Source of the DNA: Oscillochloris sp. ZM17-4
GTDB taxonomy: Bacteria; Chloroflexota; Chloroflexia; Chloroflexales; Chloroflexaceae
DNA length: 32,031 bases
Reading direction: 5' to 3'
NCBI RefSeq assembly: GCF_019599295.1
Contig: NZ_JAIEWN010000005.1
Coordinates: forward strand, 33,670 to 65,700
Shown: in pieces, positions 4,075 to 29,048 of the stretch
Layout: every line of letters begins with the position of its first letter
How positions within the stretch are numbered: the stretch's first letter is position 1
The notes under the pieces: model-generated
What the model was told of the DNA's origin: nothing
Seen by the model: only the letters and a program-made list of their open reading frames with translations
Database searches by the model: none
Program-made: the position numbers and the translations under genes

Positions 4075-4980
4075 ATGTCCTTTGAAGAACAGATCGCGCA
4101 GCTGAGCGATCTCTCGAAGCCCCTTTCACACAATGAGCTGAGGATCCTCGCAAATCTCGGGCCAGAGAGCCTGAAGATCTTCTGGCAGGCCTGGCGCCAG
4201 TTCCCTGGGGAGCGCCGTATCACGATCATCCACGACATCAATGCGCTGGCAGAGGATAATGTGGACCTCGACTTCCGACCGGTCTTCCGGGCCTGCCTGG
4301 GCGACAGCGACCCGGAGGTGCGCGCCTCAGCCGTCGCCGGGCTCTGGGAGGATGCGAGCGAGGGCACGATGGACCGGCTGATCCGCCTGATCGACGACGA
4401 CTCGGGGGCCGTCCGCGAGGCTGCCGTCGTGGCCCTGGCCGCATTCGCCTACCGGGGCGAGGTCGGCGAGATGTCGTCTGCGGCCACGCAGCGGGTGTAC
4501 GGCGCGCTGCTGAGGACCGCCACCGACCCCGAGCAGCCGATCGATGTGCGCCGCCGCGCCGTCGAGGGGCTCGGCTACTTCGCGGGATCGAAGGATGCCC
4601 AGGCGGAGATCGGCAGGGCCTACGCGCACCCCGAGCTGACGGTGCGCGAGAGCGCGGTGCTGGCCATGGGCCGCTCGATGCGACCGACCTGGTTCCCCTA
4701 TATCGAGCGCGAGCTGAAGAGCCCCTCGCCGGCCATGCGCTATGAGGCCGCCCGCGCCGTCGGCGAGCTCGGCGAGGATGGCCAGCCGATGCTGCCGAGC
4801 CTGCTGCCGCTGGTGGACGACGATGACGGCGAGATCTCCACCGCCGCGATCTGGTCGCTCGGCCAGGTGGGCGGGCCGAGCGCCAAGCGCGTGCTCCAGC
4901 GCCTCGCCAAATCTAAGGACGAGGCCCGCCGCACCGCCGCCACCGAGGCGCTGGAGGAGCTCTCGCTTGGGGAACTGTGA
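4075..4980 (+). CDS. HEAT-repeat protein
   Basis: A 301-residue product made of HEAT/PBS-lyase-type helical repeats from about residue 55 to the end. Recurrent DxDPEVRASAVAGLW-like units include DDDSGAVREAAVVALAAF, HPELTVRESAVLAMG, SPSPAMRYEAARAVGELG and DDDGEISTAAIWSLGQVG. Such proteins are protein-protein scaffolds; without the phycobilisome-lyase context no enzymatic role is implied. GAGGAAAG precedes the ATG by about 10 nt. There is no signal peptide. It leads a run of three genes (HEAT, PIG-L, FemAB), separated from the second by a short palindrome, so it may be co-transcribed with envelope genes. The 137-nt gap upstream contains only weak -10-like sequence (TAGTAT at 4051). Confidence 0.85.
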   Translation: MSFEEQIAQLSDLSKPLSHNELRILANLGPESLKIFWQAWRQFPGERRITIIHDINALAEDNVDLDFRPVFRACLGDSDPEVRASAVAGLWEDASEGTMDRLIRLIDDDSGAVREAAVVALAAFAYRGEVGEMSSAATQRVYGALLRTATDPEQPIDVRRRAVEGLGYFAGSKDAQAEIGRAYAHPELTVRESAVLAMGRSMRPTWFPYIERELKSPSPAMRYEAARAVGELGEDGQPMLPSLLPLVDDDDGEISTAAIWSLGQVGGPSAKRVLQRLAKSKDEARRTAATEALEELSLGEL

Positions 4981-4992
4981 TCCTGCGGGGGC

Positions 4993-5029
4993 CACCGTAA
5001 GGGCGCAGCAGCGCGGCGCTGCTGTGCCC
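4993..5029 (+). repeat. Copy of the GTAAGGGCGCAGCAGC palindromic repeat in a gene leader
   Basis: Arms 5001-5013 and 5017-5029 pair (13 bp, one G-T) around a CGG loop. The 32 nt at 4993-5024 are identical to 27932-27963, where the same element separates convergent genes. Here it lies 12 nt after the HEAT stop and 15 nt before the next ATG, so it could modulate downstream expression within the operon. Confidence 0.7.
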
Positions 5030-5044
5030 CAACAGGATAAACCT

Positions 5045-5851
5045 ATGCCACATCACTACATAAGCCCGGACGACCTGGCCGCGACGTACGACCACATCTA
5101 CCTCTCGCCGCACCTCGATGACGCGGCCCTCTCGTGCGGCGGGAGCATCGCCCGCTTCGTCGGCGCAGGGCAGACGGTGCTGGTGGTAAATATCTGCGCC
5201 GGCAGCCCGCCCGCCGCCGGCCCGTTCAGCCCCTTCGCCCAGCGCATGCACCGCCAGTGGGGGCTCCCGCCCGATGAGGCGGTGCGCCGGCGCACCCAGG
5301 AGGATGTCGAGGCGCTGGAGACTCTCGGCGCCGACTGCCTCCTGCTCGGTCTGCTCGACGCGATCTACCGCATGCCCGAGGCATACGTCGGCGACGAGAC
5401 GCTCTTCGGCACGGTCGCCCCCGACGACACGCTCGCCGACAGCCTGCGCGGGCAGGTCGCGGCGCTCGCGGCGCGCTACCCGGCGGCGATCTTCTACGCG
5501 CCCCTCGGCGTCGGGCAGCACGTCGACCACCAGGCCACCTACGAGGTCGCCGTGGGCCTCGCGCAGAGCGGGCTGAGCATGGCCTTCTACGAGGACTTCC
5601 CCTATGTCGCGGTGCCCGGCGCCCTCGATCGGCGCATGGCACAGATCGGCGGGGCCGAGATCTTTCTGCCCAGCGTGACCGGCATCGACGCGACGCTGGC
5701 CCGCAAGATCAGCGCGGTCGAGGCCTACGCCAGCCAGATCTCCACGCTCTTCGGCGACCTGGCGACGATGGCTGAGCGCGTCACCGCCTACGCGGAGGGG
5801 CTGCGCCCCGAGGCGGGCACCTACGGCGAGCGGATCTGGATGCGACGATGA
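5045..5851 (+). CDS. PIG-L/LmbE-family deacetylase
   Basis: PIG-L proteins are zinc-dependent N-acetyl hydrolases acting on GlcNAc-type sugars (GlcNAc-PI, mycothiol or bacillithiol precursors) and related small molecules. The 268-residue product has the metal-binding HLDDA motif (His23, Asp25, Asp26) and the second metal site as H-V-D-H at about 159-162 (GVGQHVDHQAT). There is no signal peptide. ATG 5045 is chosen because it follows AGGAT and places the metal motif at its usual distance from the N-terminus; the frame is open further upstream but would overlap the HEAT gene. Its stop overlaps the FemAB start (ATGA), so the two are translationally coupled. The substrate cannot be told from sequence; the neighbour suggests a cell-envelope amino sugar, but that is inference. 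Confidence 0.85.
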   Translation: MPHHYISPDDLAATYDHIYLSPHLDDAALSCGGSIARFVGAGQTVLVVNICAGSPPAAGPFSPFAQRMHRQWGLPPDEAVRRRTQEDVEALETLGADCLLLGLLDAIYRMPEAYVGDETLFGTVAPDDTLADSLRGQVAALAARYPAAIFYAPLGVGQHVDHQATYEVAVGLAQSGLSMAFYEDFPYVAVPGALDRRMAQIGGAEIFLPSVTGIDATLARKISAVEAYASQISTLFGDLATMAERVTAYAEGLRPEAGTYGERIWMRR

Positions 5852-6930
5852 GTATCCTGGCCCGCCCCGCCCGGCCGCGCGCCGGCGATCTGGCCCTGGT
5901 GGAGCCGGACGCTCGCGCCTGGGACGGATTCGTGGACGCGCACCCCCAGGGCAGCCTGCTCCAGCGCAGCGCCTGGGGCGCGCTCAAGGCCGAGGCCGGC
6001 TGGCGCCCACGCCGGCTGGCCGTCCTCGCCGCCGACGGGTCGCTGCGCGCCGGCGCGCAGCTGCTCATCCGCCGCCAGTATGGGCTGGCCGTCGCCTACG
6101 CCCCGCGCGGCCCGCTGCTCGCCGACGACGACGCGGCGAACCTGCTGCTGATCGACGGCCTGACGCGCATCGCCCGCGGCCAGCGCGCGATCTTCCTGCG
6201 CCTGGAGCCGAACATCACCGAGGAGCAGCCCGGGGCTGACTACGCCCACACATGGCTGCTGCTCCAGGGGATGCTGGCGGAGCGCACGATCCAGCCGCGC
6301 AGCAGCGTCCACGTGCCGATCAGCCGGCCGACCGAGGCGATCTTCGCCGGGTTCAGCAAGGGCCACCGCGCCGACATCCGCCGGGCCGAGCGCAATGGCG
6401 TGGCCGTGCGCGTAGGAGATGAGTCCGATATCCCGGCCTTCTACGCGATCATGCAGTCCACCGGGGCGCGGGCCGGCTTCGGCATCCACAGCGAGGGCTA
6501 CTACCGGGCCGCATGGCGGCTCTTCCAGCCGCGCAGCCGGCTGCTGCTGGCCGAGATCGACGGGCGGGCGGTGGCCGCCCACATGGTCTTCGCCGACGCC
6601 GGCAGCGGGCGCTACCTCTACAGCGGGGCCGATGAGGCCGGGCTGAAGGCGGGGGCCAACCACCTGCTGGAGTGGCAGGCGATCCAGTGGGCCGCCGGCC
6701 TCGGCTGTGAGCGCTACGACCTCTGGGGGATCCCCGACGCCCTCGGGCGGGCGGCCGGCGCCGACGAGGCCGAGCGGGCCGCCCTTGAGCGGGCCGCCCA
6801 GGCCGACCCGCTACTTGGGGTCTACCGCTTTAAGAAGGGCTTCGGCGGCCATGTCGTGCGCTACCTGCCGGCCTACGACCGCGTGCTCATCCCCGCGCTC
6901 TACGGCCTGGCCCGACGGCGGATCGGGTAG
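5848..6930 (+). CDS. FemAB-family aminoacyltransferase (peptidoglycan bridge-type)
   Basis: FemAB proteins transfer an amino acid from aminoacyl-tRNA to the peptide of lipid II, building the interpeptide bridge, in the cytoplasm at the membrane. The 360-residue product has the double GNAT-like fold of the family: the first lobe around 20-150 (LQRSAWGALKAEAGW, then FLRLEPNI), the linker segment KGHRADIRRAERNGVAVRV, and the second lobe with YLYSGADEAGLKAGANHLLEWQ and YDLWGIPD. It ends in FKKGFGGHVVRYLPAYD, typical of the family. It starts at the ATGA overlap with the PIG-L gene. murE lies immediately downstream, consistent with peptidoglycan, although some FemAB-like proteins modify other envelope polymers. 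A perfect 23-bp hairpin starts at the base after its stop codon. Confidence 0.85.
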   Translation: MSILARPARPRAGDLALVEPDARAWDGFVDAHPQGSLLQRSAWGALKAEAGWRPRRLAVLAADGSLRAGAQLLIRRQYGLAVAYAPRGPLLADDDAANLLLIDGLTRIARGQRAIFLRLEPNITEEQPGADYAHTWLLLQGMLAERTIQPRSSVHVPISRPTEAIFAGFSKGHRADIRRAERNGVAVRVGDESDIPAFYAIMQSTGARAGFGIHSEGYYRAAWRLFQPRSRLLLAEIDGRAVAAHMVFADAGSGRYLYSGADEAGLKAGANHLLEWQAIQWAAGLGCERYDLWGIPDALGRAAGADEAERAALERAAQADPLLGVYRFKKGFGGHVVRYLPAYDRVLIPALYGLARRRIG

Positions 6931-6979
6931 ACGTGCTGTTGCTGTATGGCGGCGTTGCCGCCATACAGCAACAGCACGT
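6931..6979. terminator. Perfect 23-bp hairpin starting right after the FemAB stop
   Basis: Arms 6931-6953 and 6957-6979 are exact reverse complements with a GTT loop. The first base of the stem follows the TAG stop directly. No T-tract follows. Confidence 0.75.
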
Positions 6980-7067
6980 TAGGAATCAGGCGTAGCGACC
7001 CCGCCGCGCCGGTTTTCGGGTACAATCCCCACAGAAGCAGGTTTCCTTGTTACTCACAACACGATCT

Positions 7068-8585
7068 ATGACGCTCACGCTGCACGACATACTCCACGGT
7101 GTGGAGACGACGGGCTCGCCCGCCGATCTCGACACGCCCATCCTGGGGATCACCTACGACTCCCGTCAGGTGCGGGCGGGCTGGCTCTTTGTGGCCATCC
7201 GCGGCTTCCACGTGGACGGTCACCGCTACGTGGGCCAGGCCGCCGCCGCGGGGGCCGCCGCCGTGGTGGTGGACGCGCGCCACTGGGGCGGCGACCCGAT
7301 AGATGTGCCGCTCATCAGCGTGGCCGACAGCCGGGTGGCCCTGGCGCCCCTAGCGGCCAACTTCTACCAGCGCCCGGCCACGGGCCTGCGCACCATCGGG
7401 ATCACCGGCACCAAGGGCAAGAGCACCACCACCGACCTGGTGAGCCAGGTGATCGAGGGCGGAGGCTTCAGCACCGGGATGATCAGCACCGTGGACTTTA
7501 AGGTTGGCCCGCGTCGCTGGCCGAACAGCACCCGCCAGAGCACCCCCGAGGCCCCCGAGATCCAGGGGCTGCTGCGCGAGATGGCCGACGCGGGCTGCGC
7601 CTACGCGGTGATCGAGTCGACCTCCCACGCCCTCTCATCCCGCTGGAACCGCCTCGGCGGCTGCATGTTTGACGTGGCGGTCTTCCTCAACATCACCCAC
7701 GAGCACCTGGACTACCACGGCAGCTTCGCGCAGTACCGCGCCGACAAGGCCCGCCTCTTTGAGATGCTCGGCGAGGGCGAGAAGGGCGAGGCCTGGGCGA
7801 TCACGAACGCCGACGACCCGAGCCACCGGCACTTCCTCGACGCGGCGCCGGCCCGTGCCCGCCGCCTGACCTTCGGCGTGCGCGCGGAGGCCGACGTGCG
7901 CGCCCATGAGGTGAGCGCGGGGCCGGGCGGATCGGCGCTGCGTGTGACGACGCCCTGGGGCGAGGCTCGCCTGCGGCTGCACCTGCCCGGCAGCTTCAAT
8001 GTCTCCAACGCCCTGGCCGCGCTCAGCGTGGCCCTCAGCCAGGGCATCCCCCTGGCGCGGGCCGTCGCCGCGCTGGAGGCGGTCCCCGGCATCCGCGGGC
8101 GCATGCAGCCGGTGAGCCTGGGCCAGCCCTTCGATGTGATCGTCGACTACGCCCACAACCCGGACTCCTTCGAGCAGGTGCTGGGCATGCTCCGCCCGCT
8201 CACCCGCGGCCGGATCATCGCCGTGTTCGGCAGCGCCGGCGAGCGCGACCGGGCCAAGCGCGCCGTCCAGGGCGAGATCGCGGGGCGCTACGCCGACCTG
8301 CTGGTGCTGACGGACGAGGACCCGCGCGGCGAGGACCCGGCCGCGATCATCGCCGAGATCGCCGAGGGCGCCGAGCGGGCCGGCAAGCGATCAGGCGACG
8401 GCTACCTCTGCATCCCCGACCGCGCCGAGGCCATCCGCGCCGCCATGGCCGCCGCCCGCCCCGGCGACCTGGTGCTGCTCCTGGGCAAGGGCCACGAGGG
8501 CAATATCATCTACGCCGGCGGCGCCATCCCCTGGGACGAGGCCGAGTCCGCCCGCGAGGCGCTGCGCGCGCTGGGGTATTCATAG
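7068..8585 (+). CDS. murE: MurE-type UDP-MurNAc-tripeptide synthetase
   Basis: MurE adds the third amino acid (a diamino acid) to UDP-MurNAc-L-Ala-D-Glu, using ATP, in the cytoplasm. From ATG 7068 the product is 505 residues, normal for the family. Visible motifs are DSRQVRAGWLFVAI in the N-terminal UMP-binding domain, the P-loop GITGTKGKSTTT at about 111-122, the central ESTSHAL and N-I-T-H-E-H-L-D-Y-H segments, and DYAHNPDSFEQVL in the C-terminal domain. The amino-acid-selecting motif reads D-E-D-P-R (416-420), where meso-DAP enzymes have DNPR. TTG 7047, with AGCAGG before it, is an alternative start seven codons upstream. A -10-like TACAAT lies at 7021-7026. Assignment to the tripeptide step is strong; which diamino acid is used is not clear. 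Confidence 0.92.
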   Translation: MTLTLHDILHGVETTGSPADLDTPILGITYDSRQVRAGWLFVAIRGFHVDGHRYVGQAAAAGAAAVVVDARHWGGDPIDVPLISVADSRVALAPLAANFYQRPATGLRTIGITGTKGKSTTTDLVSQVIEGGGFSTGMISTVDFKVGPRRWPNSTRQSTPEAPEIQGLLREMADAGCAYAVIESTSHALSSRWNRLGGCMFDVAVFLNITHEHLDYHGSFAQYRADKARLFEMLGEGEKGEAWAITNADDPSHRHFLDAAPARARRLTFGVRAEADVRAHEVSAGPGGSALRVTTPWGEARLRLHLPGSFNVSNALAALSVALSQGIPLARAVAALEAVPGIRGRMQPVSLGQPFDVIVDYAHNPDSFEQVLGMLRPLTRGRIIAVFGSAGERDRAKRAVQGEIAGRYADLLVLTDEDPRGEDPAAIIAEIAEGAERAGKRSGDGYLCIPDRAEAIRAAMAAARPGDLVLLLGKGHEGNIIYAGGAIPWDEAESAREALRALGYS

Positions 8586-8637
8586 TATGGTGGGGAAATG
8601 CGCCAGCTCCGCTGGCGCATTTCCCCACCATACTATG
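8581..8637. terminator. Perfect 27-bp hairpin overlapping the murE stop (family A)
   Basis: Arms 8581-8607 and 8611-8637 are exact reverse complements with a TCC loop. The murE stop codon (8583-8585) lies inside the left arm. The tip GCCAGC-TCC-GCTGGC is shared with the hairpins at 14264 and 24036. No T-tract follows. Confidence 0.8.
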
Positions 8638-8650
8638 AGGGTTCATTATT

Positions 8651-9484
8651 ATGATTGATCTCGCCCCCAACAACCCCTACGCGCTCACGATCGCCTCGCC
8701 GGTGATCGCGGCGGCGGGCAGCCTCGGCTACGGCGTGGAGGTGGCCCGCCACCTGGGGCTGGCAGCGCGCCCGTCGGCGCACGGGCTGGGCGCGCTCATC
8801 ACCCGCAGCACTGGGCTGCGCGCGCGGAAGGCTCGCCCCCTGCCGGAGATCGTCGAGACGCCCGCCGGGCTGCTCTACCGGGGCTGGGATCATAGCCTCG
8901 GCATGCGCGCGGTGCGCGAGCGCCTCGCGCCGGCCTGGGCGACCTGGGATCTGCCGGTGGTGGTGAGCATCTGGGGCGAGAGCGCGGCCGCGGCGGCCGA
9001 GGCCGCCGCGCAGCTTGAGGGCGTCGAGGGAGTGGCCGGCGTCGAGCTGCCCCTGGCGGCCCACGACGCGCTGACGCCCGAGGCGGCCGGCCGGCTGGTG
9101 GCGGCGGTGCGCCGGGCCACCGTGCTCCCGCTGATCGTGAAGCTGCCCGGCCAGGCCGCCGATATCCTGGCCCTGGCCCGCGCCGCCGTCGAGCGCGGGG
9201 CGGACACCCTCTCCCTGATCGACGGCATCCCGGCGCTGGCCCAGCGCGCCGACGGGACGCTGGCCGATGGCCTGCTCTGCGGCCCCGCCGTCGGCCCGCT
9301 GGCCCTGGGCCTGGTGGCCGCCGTCTGCGCCGAGGCGACGGTGCCGGTGATCGGCATCGGCGGGGTGCGCGACGCCGCCGGGGCGCGGGCGATGCTGGCG
9401 GCCGGGGCCGCGGCGGTGGGGCTGGGCTCCGCCCTGCTGACCGACCTGCGCGCGGCCGCGCGGGTCGCCGCCGCGCTCGCATAG
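8651..9484 (+). CDS. Dihydroorotate dehydrogenase-like flavoprotein lacking the orotate site
   Basis: A 277-residue TIM barrel clearly homologous to class 1 dihydroorotate dehydrogenases. Near the start, ASPVIAAAGSLGYGVE matches the family's NPVxxASGTxGYG. ALITRSTGL and EIVETPAGLL follow the known order, IVKLPGQAADI keeps the flavin-contacting Lys, and VPVIGIGGVRDAAGARAML plus GAAAVGLGSALL form the FMN phosphate site. The residues that hold and oxidise dihydroorotate are missing. The family's NxSCPN loop with the catalytic Cys is here GVELPLAAHDAL; the NxxGLxN loop is YRGWDHSLG; and the INT Asn is IDG. It is therefore probably an FMN enzyme with another substrate, or an inactive paralogue. 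It lies 65 nt after murE across a strong hairpin. Confidence 0.75.
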   Translation: MIDLAPNNPYALTIASPVIAAAGSLGYGVEVARHLGLAARPSAHGLGALITRSTGLRARKARPLPEIVETPAGLLYRGWDHSLGMRAVRERLAPAWATWDLPVVVSIWGESAAAAAEAAAQLEGVEGVAGVELPLAAHDALTPEAAGRLVAAVRRATVLPLIVKLPGQAADILALARAAVERGADTLSLIDGIPALAQRADGTLADGLLCGPAVGPLALGLVAAVCAEATVPVIGIGGVRDAAGARAMLAAGAAAVGLGSALLTDLRAAARVAAALA

Positions 9485-9650: not shown

Positions 9651-11906
9651 TCAGCGCAGGGCCAGCTCGCGCACGTGGATGTGGGCCACCTCGCCGCCGC
9701 CGATCTGCGCGATCTCCAGGCGCAGGCTGCTCAGCTCGCGCGCGCCGCTGGGCAGGTCCAGCTGGACGGTCGGGTCGGGCGGTAGGCCGGTGTAGCTCTG
9801 CTCGGCGATGATCTGCGGGCCGCCGTCGGCCGGCGTGCCGACCAGGCGCAGGCGCAGGTCCATCGAGCCGACGGTGAGCGTCACCCCGCTGACGCTGCGC
9901 GGCTGCGGGAAGCGCAGCTCGACGACCAGCGGGTTCGCCTCGAATCCGCGCATCAGGGTGTGCGGGTCGCCGTCGAAGAGCTGCGCCGGCGAGCCCATGT
10001 CCAGCATCGAGTGGGCGACTATCACCGGGCCGCCGATGTCGGCTTGATCCTCGACCAGCTGGGTGCGGGCGAGCCTGTCCGCCTCAAAGAGCGCGTCCAC
10101 GTTATCGACGTAGCGCATCCGCACGACGTAGAAGCCGGGCGAGCCGTTCGGGTAGGGGACGACCCGCTCGGGCGGGTCCACCACAAACTTGCCGCTCTTG
10201 AGCGCGCGCTCGTACTCGTAGAAGGGCATGATGAAGAGCTCGCGGGCCGGGTCGAGCTCCTGGCGCGAGACGGTGAAGGCGTCGACATTGATCATCTCGA
10301 CGCGGCCGGCCTGGGCCGGCGTGAGGAAGAAGTCGATGAAGGCGTTCGGGTTGTTCGCCCAGGTCGGCGAGACGAGCAGACGCGTGTCGGGCTCGCTGGC
10401 GAGCAGCTCGGGGACGAGCTCGCCGAAGATCTGCTGCGCGCCGTACTGCATGCCGTCGAGGCCGTAGTTCTGGAACCAGGTCGGCCCGTCGCCCAGGGCC
10501 GTGCGCAGCAGCAGCAGGCTGGAGAGGCCGAGGGCCAGCGCCACCGCCCAGGCGGCCACGCGGTAGCGCACTCGGCCAGCGACCCAGGCGTAGCAGCGGT
10601 CGAGCCCGATGACGGCCAGGAGGGCGGCGGGCACCACCATCGCCAGCACGCGGGTGATGCTGATCGCCACCAGGGCCGACGAGAAGGGCGCGGCGAGCAC
10701 CGCGATCAGCAGCGTGCGGTGGGCCGGAGAGCGCAGGTTGGCCAGGCAGACCCCCAGACCGACCAGGATGAAGGGCAGCAGCAGCAGGGGCAGGTGGCCC
10801 ATGCCGAGCATGCGGTGGCGGGCGAGATCGACGCTGTTGGGCAGAAACCAGTAGGCCGGGCTGAGCCCGGCGAGGTAGGTCGCGCCAAAGGTGGCCAGCT
10901 TCTCGCCCAGCGGGATGCTGTGCGTCCAGTAGGAGTCGAGGGCGCGCAGCTGGGCCTCATAGGCGTCGGGCTGGAGCAGGCGGAAGCGGGCCAGCGGGAT
11001 GACGAGCAGGGCCAGCGTCCCGGCTGCGGCGGCGAGCACCCGCCAGCCCTGGCGCAGGTGGTAGCGCAGGTCCGAGAGCAGCAGGAGCGCGCCGCTGGCC
11101 AGCATGACGCCCTGTCCATTCGCGTAGGCGTAGAAGGTCATCGCCCCGAAGACGAGGGCGGGGAAGAGCCAGGCGGCGCCGCGGGTGCGGTAGAGCAGGT
11201 AGCAGCAGAGGAAGCAGGCGTAGAAGGCCACCATCATCACCGTCTCGAAGGCGGTGCGCGAGTGCAGGAACCAGGCCGGGGCGGCCGCGAGGGCCAGCGG
11301 GCCGGCCCACCAGAAGCGGCTCTGGAAGACCAGGCGCAGGGTGAGGGCGACGGCCAGCAGGGCCAGGGCGCCCACCGCCGCCGAGGTGGCGCGGGTCAGG
11401 AAGACCGATTCGCCGCCGAAGAGGGCGCGGCTGGCCAGGTGGATGTAGACGCTCAGGCTAAGGTTCCACTTCTCGGCGTTGAGGAAGTAGGGCGGCAGGA
11501 AGGTGCCGTCGGCGTCGCGCAGGCCGCTGGCGAGCAGCTGGCGGGCCAGGTTCGCCTGGATGGCCTCATCGCAGAAGAAGTAGATCGGGAAGGCGGCGAT
11601 CCCGGAGAGGCGGGTGAGCGCGTAGAGCAGCAGCCCGGCGGCGAGGGCGAGCAGGTCGCCCCAGCGCAGCTCGGCCAGGATGCCCGCGCGGCCAAGGGGG
11701 GCGGCGAGGGCGGACCAGGGCGAGCGAGCGGCCCCGGCCGCCGCCTCCGGCGAGACGATCACCGTCGGCCCGGAGGGCACCACCAGCTGGACAGGGGTGC
11801 CGTCGGGCAGGTCGAGGGGCTGCTCGGGGAGGATCGCCCCCCCGCGATAGACCGCGCGGACAATGCGGCCGGGCGGGGGGGCGTTTGGGTCAAGGGGCTC
11901 TGGCAT
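9651..11906 (-). CDS. GT-C (family 39/ArnT-like) glycosyltransferase with DUF104-like N-terminus
   Basis: A 751-residue polytopic protein. Residues about 14-45 (GRIVRAVYRGGAILPEQPLD then LPDGTPVQLVV) resemble the DUF104/AF2212-like domain usually seen as a stand-alone antitoxin. From about 85 to 475 there are around ten to twelve hydrophobic helices in the GT-C pattern. The first large outer loop carries FFCDEAIQANLARQLL, with the Asp-Glu pair expected to be catalytic in the PMT/ArnT group. Such enzymes use polyprenyl-phosphate sugars outside the membrane to glycosylate proteins or lipids. The last 130 residues form a beta-rich, discoidin-like domain (VELRFPQPRSVSGVTLTVGS), probably outside the cell and perhaps sugar-binding. 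ATG 11906 is used. A TATACT -10-like hexamer lies upstream on the minus strand at 11947-11952. Acceptor and sugar are unknown. Confidence 0.8.
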   Translation of the reverse strand: MPEPLDPNAPPPGRIVRAVYRGGAILPEQPLDLPDGTPVQLVVPSGPTVIVSPEAAAGAARSPWSALAAPLGRAGILAELRWGDLLALAAGLLLYALTRLSGIAAFPIYFFCDEAIQANLARQLLASGLRDADGTFLPPYFLNAEKWNLSLSVYIHLASRALFGGESVFLTRATSAAVGALALLAVALTLRLVFQSRFWWAGPLALAAAPAWFLHSRTAFETVMMVAFYACFLCCYLLYRTRGAAWLFPALVFGAMTFYAYANGQGVMLASGALLLLSDLRYHLRQGWRVLAAAAGTLALLVIPLARFRLLQPDAYEAQLRALDSYWTHSIPLGEKLATFGATYLAGLSPAYWFLPNSVDLARHRMLGMGHLPLLLLPFILVGLGVCLANLRSPAHRTLLIAVLAAPFSSALVAISITRVLAMVVPAALLAVIGLDRCYAWVAGRVRYRVAAWAVALALGLSSLLLLRTALGDGPTWFQNYGLDGMQYGAQQIFGELVPELLASEPDTRLLVSPTWANNPNAFIDFFLTPAQAGRVEMINVDAFTVSRQELDPARELFIMPFYEYERALKSGKFVVDPPERVVPYPNGSPGFYVVRMRYVDNVDALFEADRLARTQLVEDQADIGGPVIVAHSMLDMGSPAQLFDGDPHTLMRGFEANPLVVELRFPQPRSVSGVTLTVGSMDLRLRLVGTPADGGPQIIAEQSYTGLPPDPTVQLDLPSGARELSSLRLEIAQIGGGEVAHIHVRELALR

Positions 11907-14263: not shown

Positions 14264-14320
14264 CATAGTGTCTTGCAGAAATGTGCCAGCTTCGCTGGCA
14301 CATTTCTGCAAGACACTATG
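14264..14320. terminator. Perfect 27-bp hairpin between convergent L25 and GT2 genes (family A)
   Basis: Arms 14264-14290 and 14294-14320 are exact reverse complements with a TTC loop. Arm length, the outer CATAGT, the inner AAATG and the tip GCCAGC match the hairpin at 8581, although the middle of the arm differs. It probably ends transcripts from both sides. No T-tract is seen. Confidence 0.8.
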
Positions 14321-15497: not shown

Positions 15498-15559
15498 GCA
15501 GATTGCAGATTGCAGATTGCAGATTGCAGATTGCAATCTGCAATCTGCAATCTGCAATC
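15498..15559. repeat. Heptamer GCAGATT array forming a perfect palindrome
   Basis: Five tandem GCAGATT copies (15498-15532) run straight into inverted AATCTGC copies (15535-15559). Bases 15508-15559 form a perfect 52-nt palindrome without a loop. It sits 3 nt before the GT2 start codon and between divergent genes. The same heptamer, in one orientation only, recurs at 25759. It is a simple repeat, not a CRISPR, since there are no spacers. Confidence 0.9.
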
Positions 15560-17505: not shown

Positions 17506-19827
<2,322 letters not shown>

Positions 19828-19890
19828 GGGGCGCAGCAGGAAGAGCGGCGCTGTCGCGTTGCGACAGCGCCGCTCTTCCTGCTGCGCCCC
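19828..19890. terminator. Perfect 30-bp hairpin directly after the kinase stop
   Basis: Arms 19828-19857 and 19861-19890 are exact reverse complements with a GTT loop, the longest two-arm hairpin in the window. It starts at the base after TGA. Its outer GGGCGCAGCAG is shared with the palindromes at 5001, 27078 and 27940. It also lies 32 nt beyond the 3' end of the RNase P RNA on the other strand. No T-tract is seen. Confidence 0.8.
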
Positions 19891-19921
19891 TGCATATGAC
19901 ATGGCCGCAGGCAATGTCGGA

Positions 19922-21601: not shown

Positions 21602-21733
21602 CACCCAGTGCACCCGAGCCACCGCCTGCTGCTCTGCGGCACATCCAAGGCCCCGCCCAAGCAGCGATCCGCCCTCTCCCTTGATGAGCTCGTCGATGTG
21701 CTCAAGGTGGGCGTCCAGCGGGGCAGAAGATAG
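21581..21733 (+). CDS. Possible small protein (50 residues)
   Basis: An open frame from GTG 21581 (alternative GTG 21608) to TAG at 21731-21733. The product begins MSQANPQHPVHPSHRLLLCG and ends with a helical stretch SLDELVDVLKVGVQRGRR, basic at the end. Most third codon positions are G or C, as in the neighbouring genes. An 18-bp hairpin begins at the last base of its stop codon, as it does after several certain genes here. There is no ribosome-binding site and only a weak -10 (TATAGT at 21570-21575). It overlaps the putative aminotransferase promoter. No family is recognised; it could be a chance frame. Confidence 0.3.
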   Translation: MSQANPQHPVHPSHRLLLCGTSKAPPKQRSALSLDELVDVLKVGVQRGRR

Positions 21734-21770
21734 CGACAGGGGCGCGGTGCAAGCACCGCGCCCCTGTCGC
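21733..21770. terminator. Perfect 18-bp hairpin between convergent units
   Basis: Arms 21733-21750 and 21753-21770 are exact reverse complements with AA at the tip (about a 4-6 nt loop in practice). It lies 18 nt beyond the stop of the sigma factor gene on the minus strand and at the stop of the possible small ORF on the plus strand. Confidence 0.7.
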
Positions 21771-21787
21771 TCGTCCGAGCGCCGCAT

Positions 21788-24035: not shown

Positions 24036-24086
24036 ATATCGTGAGGAGGAGTTGCCAGCTACGCTGGCAACTCCTCCTCACGATAT
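24036..24086. terminator. Perfect 24-bp hairpin after tpiA (family A)
   Basis: Arms 24036-24059 and 24063-24086 are exact reverse complements with a TAC loop. The tip GCCAGC-TAC-GCTGGC is the same as in the hairpins at 8581 and 14264. It starts 16 nt after the tpiA stop and has no T-tract. Confidence 0.8.
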
Positions 24087-24124: not shown

Positions 24125-24240
24125 GCCCGGCCCGTAAACGGGCGGGCTAGGGTTTGCGAAGGCCGCCTGCGCGGCCTCAGACAGGCCGCGCAGGCGGCCT
24201 TCGCAGAACCGTAGCCGGGGGCTTCAGCCTACCGGCGGGC
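24125..24240. repeat. Second palindrome cluster before the CNNM gene
   Basis: In the 272-nt gap after tpiA there are further dyads. GCCCGGCCCGT pairs with ACGGGCGGGC (about 24125-24147, one bulge). Arms 24155-24177 and 24183-24205 form a perfect 23-bp stem with a 5-nt loop. An imperfect AGCCGGGGGCTTCAGCC element (about 24213-24229) follows. No gene is seen here. The cluster may be a remnant of repeats inserted next to one another. A weak -10 (TATAAG, 24275-24280) lies just before the next gene. Confidence 0.65.
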
Positions 24241-27931: not shown

Positions 27932-27972
27932 CACCGTAAGGGCGCAGCAGCGCGGCGCTGCTGCGCCCTTAC
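27932..27972. terminator. 17-bp hairpin between convergent surE and response regulator genes
   Basis: Arms 27936-27952 and 27956-27972 are exact reverse complements with a CGG loop. The stop codon of the minus-strand gene (27971-27969) lies inside the stem. The first 32 nt (27932-27963) are identical to 4993-5024. Confidence 0.75.
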
Positions 27973-29013: not shown

Positions 29014-29048
29014 AGCTTCCGGTAAGGTTCACAACCTTACCGGAAGCT
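29014..29048. terminator. Perfect 16-bp hairpin after korB
   Basis: Arms 29014-29029 and 29033-29048 are exact reverse complements with a CAC loop (GTG on the minus strand). It starts 6 nt after the korB stop. No T-tract is seen on the minus strand. Confidence 0.75.

Follow-up and report, generated by a model that had tools for sequence, protein, structure and literature searches.

A PyrD-type barrel protein of Chloroflexales without the dihydroorotate catalytic residues, and its possible PyrK-like partner

DHOL, encoded by an open reading frame at 8651..9484 (+) in a 32,031-nucleotide stretch of the genome of Oscillochloris sp. ZM17-4 (NCBI RefSeq assembly GCF_019599295.1, contig NZ_JAIEWN010000005.1, positions 33,670 to 65,700 of the forward strand; the whole stretch is called the window here), is a homologue of dihydroorotate dehydrogenase (DHODH) that is predicted to form a PyrD-1B-like (beta/alpha)8 barrel but lacks the catalytic residues for dihydroorotate, as judged from the reading frame, Pfam and NCBIfam matches, structure modeling and a family alignment. 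The name DHOL is used for the family of this gene in the Chloroflexales, and G000 for the window genome. The interpretation that we favor, and to which we give about an even chance, is that DHOL serves as the PyrD-type barrel subunit in a class-1B (PyrD-PyrK) complex that was remodelled and has ceased to oxidise dihydroorotate; the partner would be a PyrK-like protein encoded on G000 contig C68.

The presence of the reading frame was confirmed; it opens with ATG and encodes 277 amino acids. The protein matches Pfam DHO_dh with 76 bits against a cut-off of 27, yet falls far below the cut-offs of the NCBIfam PyrD models (PRK07259, 155.6 against 269 bits; TIGR01037, 121.2 against 270). Other branches of the superfamily score lower still, with at best 27.1 bits for the class-2 DHODH models (cut-off 267), 27.9 for the PRK07565 type (NF005741, cut-off 303) and 50.8 for the PreA subunit of dihydropyrimidine dehydrogenase (NF006183, cut-off 335). 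The nearest kin in sequence is PyrDB, both for the window protein (phmmer, 1ep1_A, E 4e-27) and for the family profile (5ksw_A, E 9e-56). An AlphaFold2 model of the window protein, with a predicted local distance difference test score (pLDDT) of 93.7, likewise found PyrDB as its best PDB matches, with Z of 36.4-36.9 and a root-mean-square deviation (rmsd) of 1.5-1.6 over 266 residues (5ksw_C, Z 36.9; 1ep2_A, Z 36.8), and Foldseek returned the same top kin; the modeled fold is thus that of class-1B DHODH.

Active-site residues were compared in an alignment of 40 DHOL rows (25 from family f1, including the window, 8 from f4, 4 from f2 and 3 from f3, the Herpetosiphon-type members) with 20 PyrD-1B proteins of other Chloroflexota; column placement near gaps is the aligner's, and three f1 rows that end early were counted as gaps. 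The original prediction, made from the DNA letters, held that the NxSCPN loop with its catalytic Cys, the NxxGLxN loop and the Asn of INT are all replaced, and this was borne out against Lactococcus lactis PyrDB and the 20 PyrD-1B proteins: in the window protein NxSCPN has become PLAAHD, LNxxGLxN has become LYRGWDHS, INT has become IDG, and the lysine of SKGTT is Arg. The catalytic Cys, present in 20/20 PyrD-1B, occurs in 0/40 DHOL rows, and the first Asn of NxSCPN (20/20 against 2/40), the Asn of LN in LNxxGLxN (18/20 against 0/40), the INT Asn (20/20 against 1/40) and the SKGTT Lys (19/20 against 0/40, with Arg in 24) are depleted in the same way. Nor did an equivalent Cys or Ser, the finding that had been named as contrary to the prediction, consistently take the place of the lost Cys, that position holding mixed residues with Ser in 3/40 and a gap in 7/40.

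It had also been predicted that the parts binding flavin mononucleotide (FMN) are kept, which holds for the window protein and most f1 and f4 rows and fails for f2, f3 and part of f1. The glycine-rich phosphate-site elements GIGG, AGA and LGSA and the VKL lysine are retained in the window protein, so that an FMN-phosphate site is predicted there; the FMN-phosphate glycines are intact in most f1/f4 rows as well, and the VKL position is K or R in 33/33 of them. The suspicion that an automatic pyrD label would be wrong is supported by the missing catalytic residues together with the scores below all PyrD cut-offs.

By its full-length profile match and the shared losses, the window protein belongs to a family that is spread across the order Chloroflexales. 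The DHOL profile scores it at 415.5 bits over its full length (the protein is itself a row of the profile). In 251 Chloroflexota genomes drawn for the survey, the 16 top profile matches (313-429 bits) all lie within the window's order, and among the next, in other families (at most 270 bits), typical PyrD-1B proteins carrying an SCPN loop were seen where the sequence was inspected. Named records carrying DHOL comprise Oscillochloris, Chloroflexus, Chloroploca, Roseiflexus and, weakly, Herpetosiphon (28 loci, one contig being binned as Gracilibacteria); a plasmid search gave one weak match. That contig, L103, binned as Candidatus Gracilibacteria, encodes a DHOL of 44% identity and is likely a mis-binned Chloroflexales contig. 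In a tree, from which L103 was excluded for its broken frame, a branch with 100/100 support parts the DHOL rows and three short rows of other Chloroflexota from PyrD-1B, with inner placement unsure on account of some long branches. The short rows (L150, L151 and L153, from distant Chloroflexota) are PyrD-like without the Cys motif, join the DHOL clade on long branches and were not counted as DHOL; the gene upstream of L150, judged by eye, resembles an oxidoreductase dependent on flavin adenine dinucleotide (FAD). Among six congeners the ratio of nonsynonymous to synonymous substitution rates (dN/dS) of DHOL is 0.14-0.39, indicating purifying selection rather than random decay. A frameshift or sequencing-error origin of the losses was ruled out, since orthologues have the same losses and dN/dS stays below 0.4.

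The genes of pyrimidine synthesis gave a less simple result. A second, complete pyrD had been expected in the genome, and none was found in the G000 assembly, where the search gave just DHOL and a PRK07565-like protein, although pyrB, pyrC, a pyrE-like gene and pyrF were found (pyrE is below the family cut-off in all six genomes). The very situation that had been held to speak against the prediction, no other pyrD with the pyrimidine genes present, is therefore literally that of G000. All five congeners, however, have class-2 pyrD together with DHOL (Pfam scores of 250 bits or more; 447.9 bits to PRK05286 in genome G005), and the corresponding G000 locus holds a transposase-bearing insert, which looks like a local loss. 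That locus was found on contig C95 with the G005 pyrD locus as guide: identity is 85-95% over the end of surE and over the flank upstream, but 1.4 kb with the start of surE and pyrD is swapped for a 3.3-kb insert (L113:3349-6680) that encodes a DDE transposase, shows a weak match to radical SAM and is in single copy in the assembly. No gap interrupts the syntenic locus where the sequence has been exchanged; N runs lie nearby at L113:1523-1622 and 7145-7244. A collapsed repeat was ruled out by the single copy and the lack of an internal N run; the contig may be chimeric, and the absence of pyrD looks like either an assembly fault or a loss that was local and recent, in which case the organism may depend on an outside source of pyrimidines. 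Because the congeners with class-2 pyrD show the same losses in DHOL, it is not read as a replacement for pyrD. The PRK07565-type protein, at L072:8219-9271 on contig C57, lies beside a 1224-amino-acid open reading frame that may be nifJ.

A candidate partner is provided by the PyrK-like protein, which is present in genomes G000, G002, G005 and G032; the Pfam model of the PyrK [2Fe-2S] domain gave matches in 6/7 f1 genomes tried. In G000 it has 264 amino acids, and its gene on contig C68 is divergent from a priA-like gene. Its best PDB match by profile is PyrK (5ksw_B, E 2e-11), although it scores 49.1 bits against a PRK00054 cut-off of 314, and its model (pLDDT 80.7, low at 229-252, the site of the cysteines) again finds 5ksw_B as its best match (Z 24.2, rmsd 2.9, 231 residues). 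Motifs were counted by eye from an alignment of 27 PyrK-like and 11 canonical rows, duplicate loci of one genome being counted once. The four [2Fe-2S] cysteines are retained in 27/27 distinct PyrK-like rows, while the FAD motif RRPxS and the GGGxG and CGP motifs for nicotinamide adenine dinucleotide (NAD) are replaced: the FAD Ser/Thr occurs in 0/27 PyrK-like against 9/11 canonical rows, and the CG of CGP in 0/27 against 11/11.

The two genes tend to occur together. In a table of 61 genomes, 43 have both, 5 have DHOL alone, 3 the PyrK-like gene alone and 10 neither (Fisher p = 7e-6), and within f1 the association is 22/26 against 1/11 (p 3e-5), these p values being uncorrected for phylogeny and inflated by relatedness. 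The table was compiled by hand; matches below 62 bits in G016, G026 and G027, which coincide with PRK07565-like places, were scored as DHOL absent, and fragmented matches in G021 (both genes) and G059 (PyrK-like) as present. On a class-2 PyrD tree three changes of DHOL presence are needed, two of them forced by starred branches, and one absence is that of an 86%-complete genome. Physical linkage was seen in six Chloroflexus genomes, with the PyrK-like gene 2-7 kb from DHOL (L043, L048, L051, L098, L107 and L162).

The surroundings of DHOL were compared across loci. In the window it is directly preceded by murE, for UDP-N-acetylmuramyl-tripeptide synthetase (7047..8585, +; TIGR01085, 492.9 bits, cut-off 257.3), and further upstream lie a conserved FemAB/FemX-like transferase (5848..6930, +; PF02388, 138 bits), a PIG-L-type deacetylase (4742..5851, +, with the true start probably later than 4742; PF02585, 55 bits) and a HEAT-repeat protein (4075..4980, +; PF13646, 112 bits), and by synteny this HEAT/PIG-L/FemAB/murE/DHOL block is retained from the window's genus to Chloroflexus. 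The convergent neighbor, a large membrane protein (9651..11906, -) kept in several relatives, has no Pfam or NCBIfam match of its own; its homologue in L042 weakly matches PMT_2. Considering the nearest tested same-strand gene within 400 nucleotides upstream, murE was found in 11/33 loci, the window included, and a MATE-transporter gene in 6/33, and murE lies on the same strand within 3 kb in 18/33. Four-nucleotide overlaps with DHOL occur for murE in L035, L036, L044 and L065 and for MATE in L040, L047 and L049; the MATE-DHOL pair was also seen in f2 (L196, L198 and L199) and in L106. A MurE-DHOL fusion, suggested by long open reading frames in L057, L058 and L059, was rejected on finding that the N-terminal parts are upstream or out-of-frame DNA and not MurE, that of L059 being out of frame with a MATE gene. 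In f4, DHOL is convergent with proA or proBA in 7/8 loci. A connection of DHOL with peptidoglycan and ornithine, prompted by Chloroflexus peptidoglycan and by these ProBA neighbors, is only a lead, on which a literature search gave nothing decisive.

Between murE and DHOL lies a perfect inverted repeat with 28-bp arms and a 3-nucleotide loop (8580..8638, +), which folds at -58 kcal/mol (z -10) and was not seen in the four congener gaps inspected. It is one of eleven perfect hairpins found in the window by sequence scan (arms of 16-31 bp, loops of 3-5 nucleotides), the others lying at 1510-1560, 6931-6979, 14264-14320, 15501-15559, 19827-19891, 21732-21771, 24036-24086, 24155-24205, 27936-27972 and 29014-29048; several begin at or just after a stop codon. 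Markov controls gave none in 10/10, against the eleven in the window. Such hairpins were found in 8/9 other loci of the same genus, one to four in each, and in none of five loci from other genera.

In class-1B enzymes electrons pass from dihydroorotate to FMN in PyrDB, then to the [2Fe-2S] cluster and the FAD of PyrK, and finally to NAD+ (PMC8097209). In the proposed remodelled complex, DHOL and the PyrK-like protein would associate in the manner of PyrD and PyrK, and FMN and the [2Fe-2S] cluster would exchange electrons in Chloroflexaceae and Roseiflexaceae, but the substrate end in DHOL and the NADH end in the PyrK-like protein would both have been replaced, so that the output might be a reaction on another small molecule or the sensing of redox state. 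Class-2 PyrD may have taken over pyrimidine synthesis, leaving the old complex free to change. With the outer ends gone, the core motifs kept and the two genes gained and lost together, a retained but rewired complex is the most economical interpretation. Frequent murE and MATE neighbors lead us to guess, and to hold weakly, that the role of DHOL is envelope-related. The full proposal, in which a PyrD-PyrK complex was rewired at both ends across an order of phototrophic and gliding bacteria, its substrate and NADH/FAD sites dismantled and its barrel and [2Fe-2S] ligands put to a new use in redox chemistry or sensing, perhaps during construction of the envelope, is offered tentatively, as something that falls short of probable.

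Several findings weigh against such a complex. DHOL occurs without the PyrK-like gene in G003, G007, G015, G033 and G057, and the reverse holds in G028, G058 and G059. In the g1 genomes the PyrK-like gene is not linked to DHOL and is divergent from priA, and in four Roseiflexus-type genomes (L207, L208, L190 and L193) it abuts class-2 pyrD, an arrangement that we can explain only as the remnant of a former pyr cluster. In VGT, Asp replaces the G in 7/7 f2/f3 rows and in 4 f1 rows, and Ala does so in 5 more f1 rows, and the VKL lysine is lost in 7/7 f2/f3 rows; given this erosion of FMN motifs in f2, in f3 and in part of f1, FMN is not a constant of the family. Linkage to murE is missing in f4 and in 7/25 f1 loci.

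Other interpretations were weighed with the same evidence. DHOL alone might use FMN to act on a new substrate in a cell-envelope or peptidoglycan pathway, with the PyrK-like protein an unrelated survivor, as the intact FMN-phosphate motifs of the window protein and the frequent, sometimes overlapping murE upstream would allow, and a parallel is offered by fungal class-1A DHODH-like proteins that proved to be dihydrouracil oxidases (PMC10395836). We consider this doubtful, given that no conserved new catalytic residue stands at the old Cys position, that the two genes are lost together and that the FMN site is eroded in other members. That same erosion, taken with the loss of all substrate residues and with purifying selection among the congeners, would suit a pseudoenzyme without catalysis, which might act as a scaffold or as a regulator, for instance of MurE, of MATE or of the PyrK-like Fe-S protein, and for which FMN or a different phosphate ligand, if bound, would be no more than a signal. 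We hold this to be unlikely, since the window protein, like most members from Chloroflexaceae and Roseiflexaceae, still has the FMN-phosphate motifs and a lysine or arginine at the VKL position. That DHOL is still the dihydroorotate dehydrogenase of the organism is suggested by the G000 assembly, with its other pyrimidine genes, no canonical pyrD and a gapless syntenic locus, but the catalytic Cys and orotate-binding Asn are missing, and the congeners that carry class-2 pyrD share these losses. Simpler explanations would be that pyrD was lost or failed to assemble, that pyrimidines are salvaged, or that the PRK07565-like protein stands in, and DHOL as DHODH was rejected as highly improbable.

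A search of literature listings, mostly outside the subscription journals, found no paper describing the DHOL family. In G032, which we take to be the genome of C. aurantiacus, the three best PF01180 places are at 2.845, 3.174 and 5.249 Mb. When locus numbers are interpolated from the first of these to the last, Caur_2338 is expected at about 3.18 Mb, at DHOL, so that by map position Caur_2338 would be the DHOL of this organism; the PRK07565-type protein found in G000 at L072 corresponds by position probably to Caur_2081 of C. aurantiacus, also called DHODH there. The C. aurantiacus genome paper names two aerobic DHODH enzymes, Caur_2081 and Caur_3923, and an anaerobic one, Caur_2338, and uses the aerobic/anaerobic pair as an argument on adaptation to oxygen (PMC3150298). 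By the present analysis one gene fewer counts toward pyrimidine synthesis in Chloroflexales, and a DHOL/PyrK-like complex, if true, would clearly exemplify an iron-sulphur flavoenzyme that has given up both catalytic ends and kept its electron-transfer core, with the partner defined.

Among known systems, DHOL is closest to class-1B PyrDB (L. lactis 1EP1/1EP2/1EP3), with which it shares the fold (Z 36.9, rmsd 1.6 over 266 residues), the FMN-phosphate motifs, an AxG loop and the VKL lysine; unlike PyrDB it lacks the NxSCPN Cys, LNxxGLxN and the INT Asn and has the SKGTT Lys replaced, and its congeners use class-2 PyrD. The PyrK-like protein resembles PyrK (1EP1_B, 5KSW_B; PRK00054) in fold and in the four [2Fe-2S] cysteines, and differs in its replaced FAD RRPxS and NAD GGGxG/CGP motifs. 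According to one review, the insertion of Fe-S into PyrK seems to depend on PyrDB (PMC8097209). The PRK07565 DHOD-like protein (NF005741), a second PyrD homologue whose function is doubtful, is encoded in the same genome and is of a family separate from DHOL, and the FMN domain of PreA/dihydropyrimidine dehydrogenase, of the same barrel family, is the next structural kin (Z about 31), though DHOL has no conserved active-site Cys. The fungal dihydrouracil oxidases are a precedent for a DHODH-like gene beside a class-2 DHODH that is not itself a DHODH; these proteins actively oxidise a closely related substrate, whereas DHOL has lost the residues that handle pyrimidines (PMC10395836).
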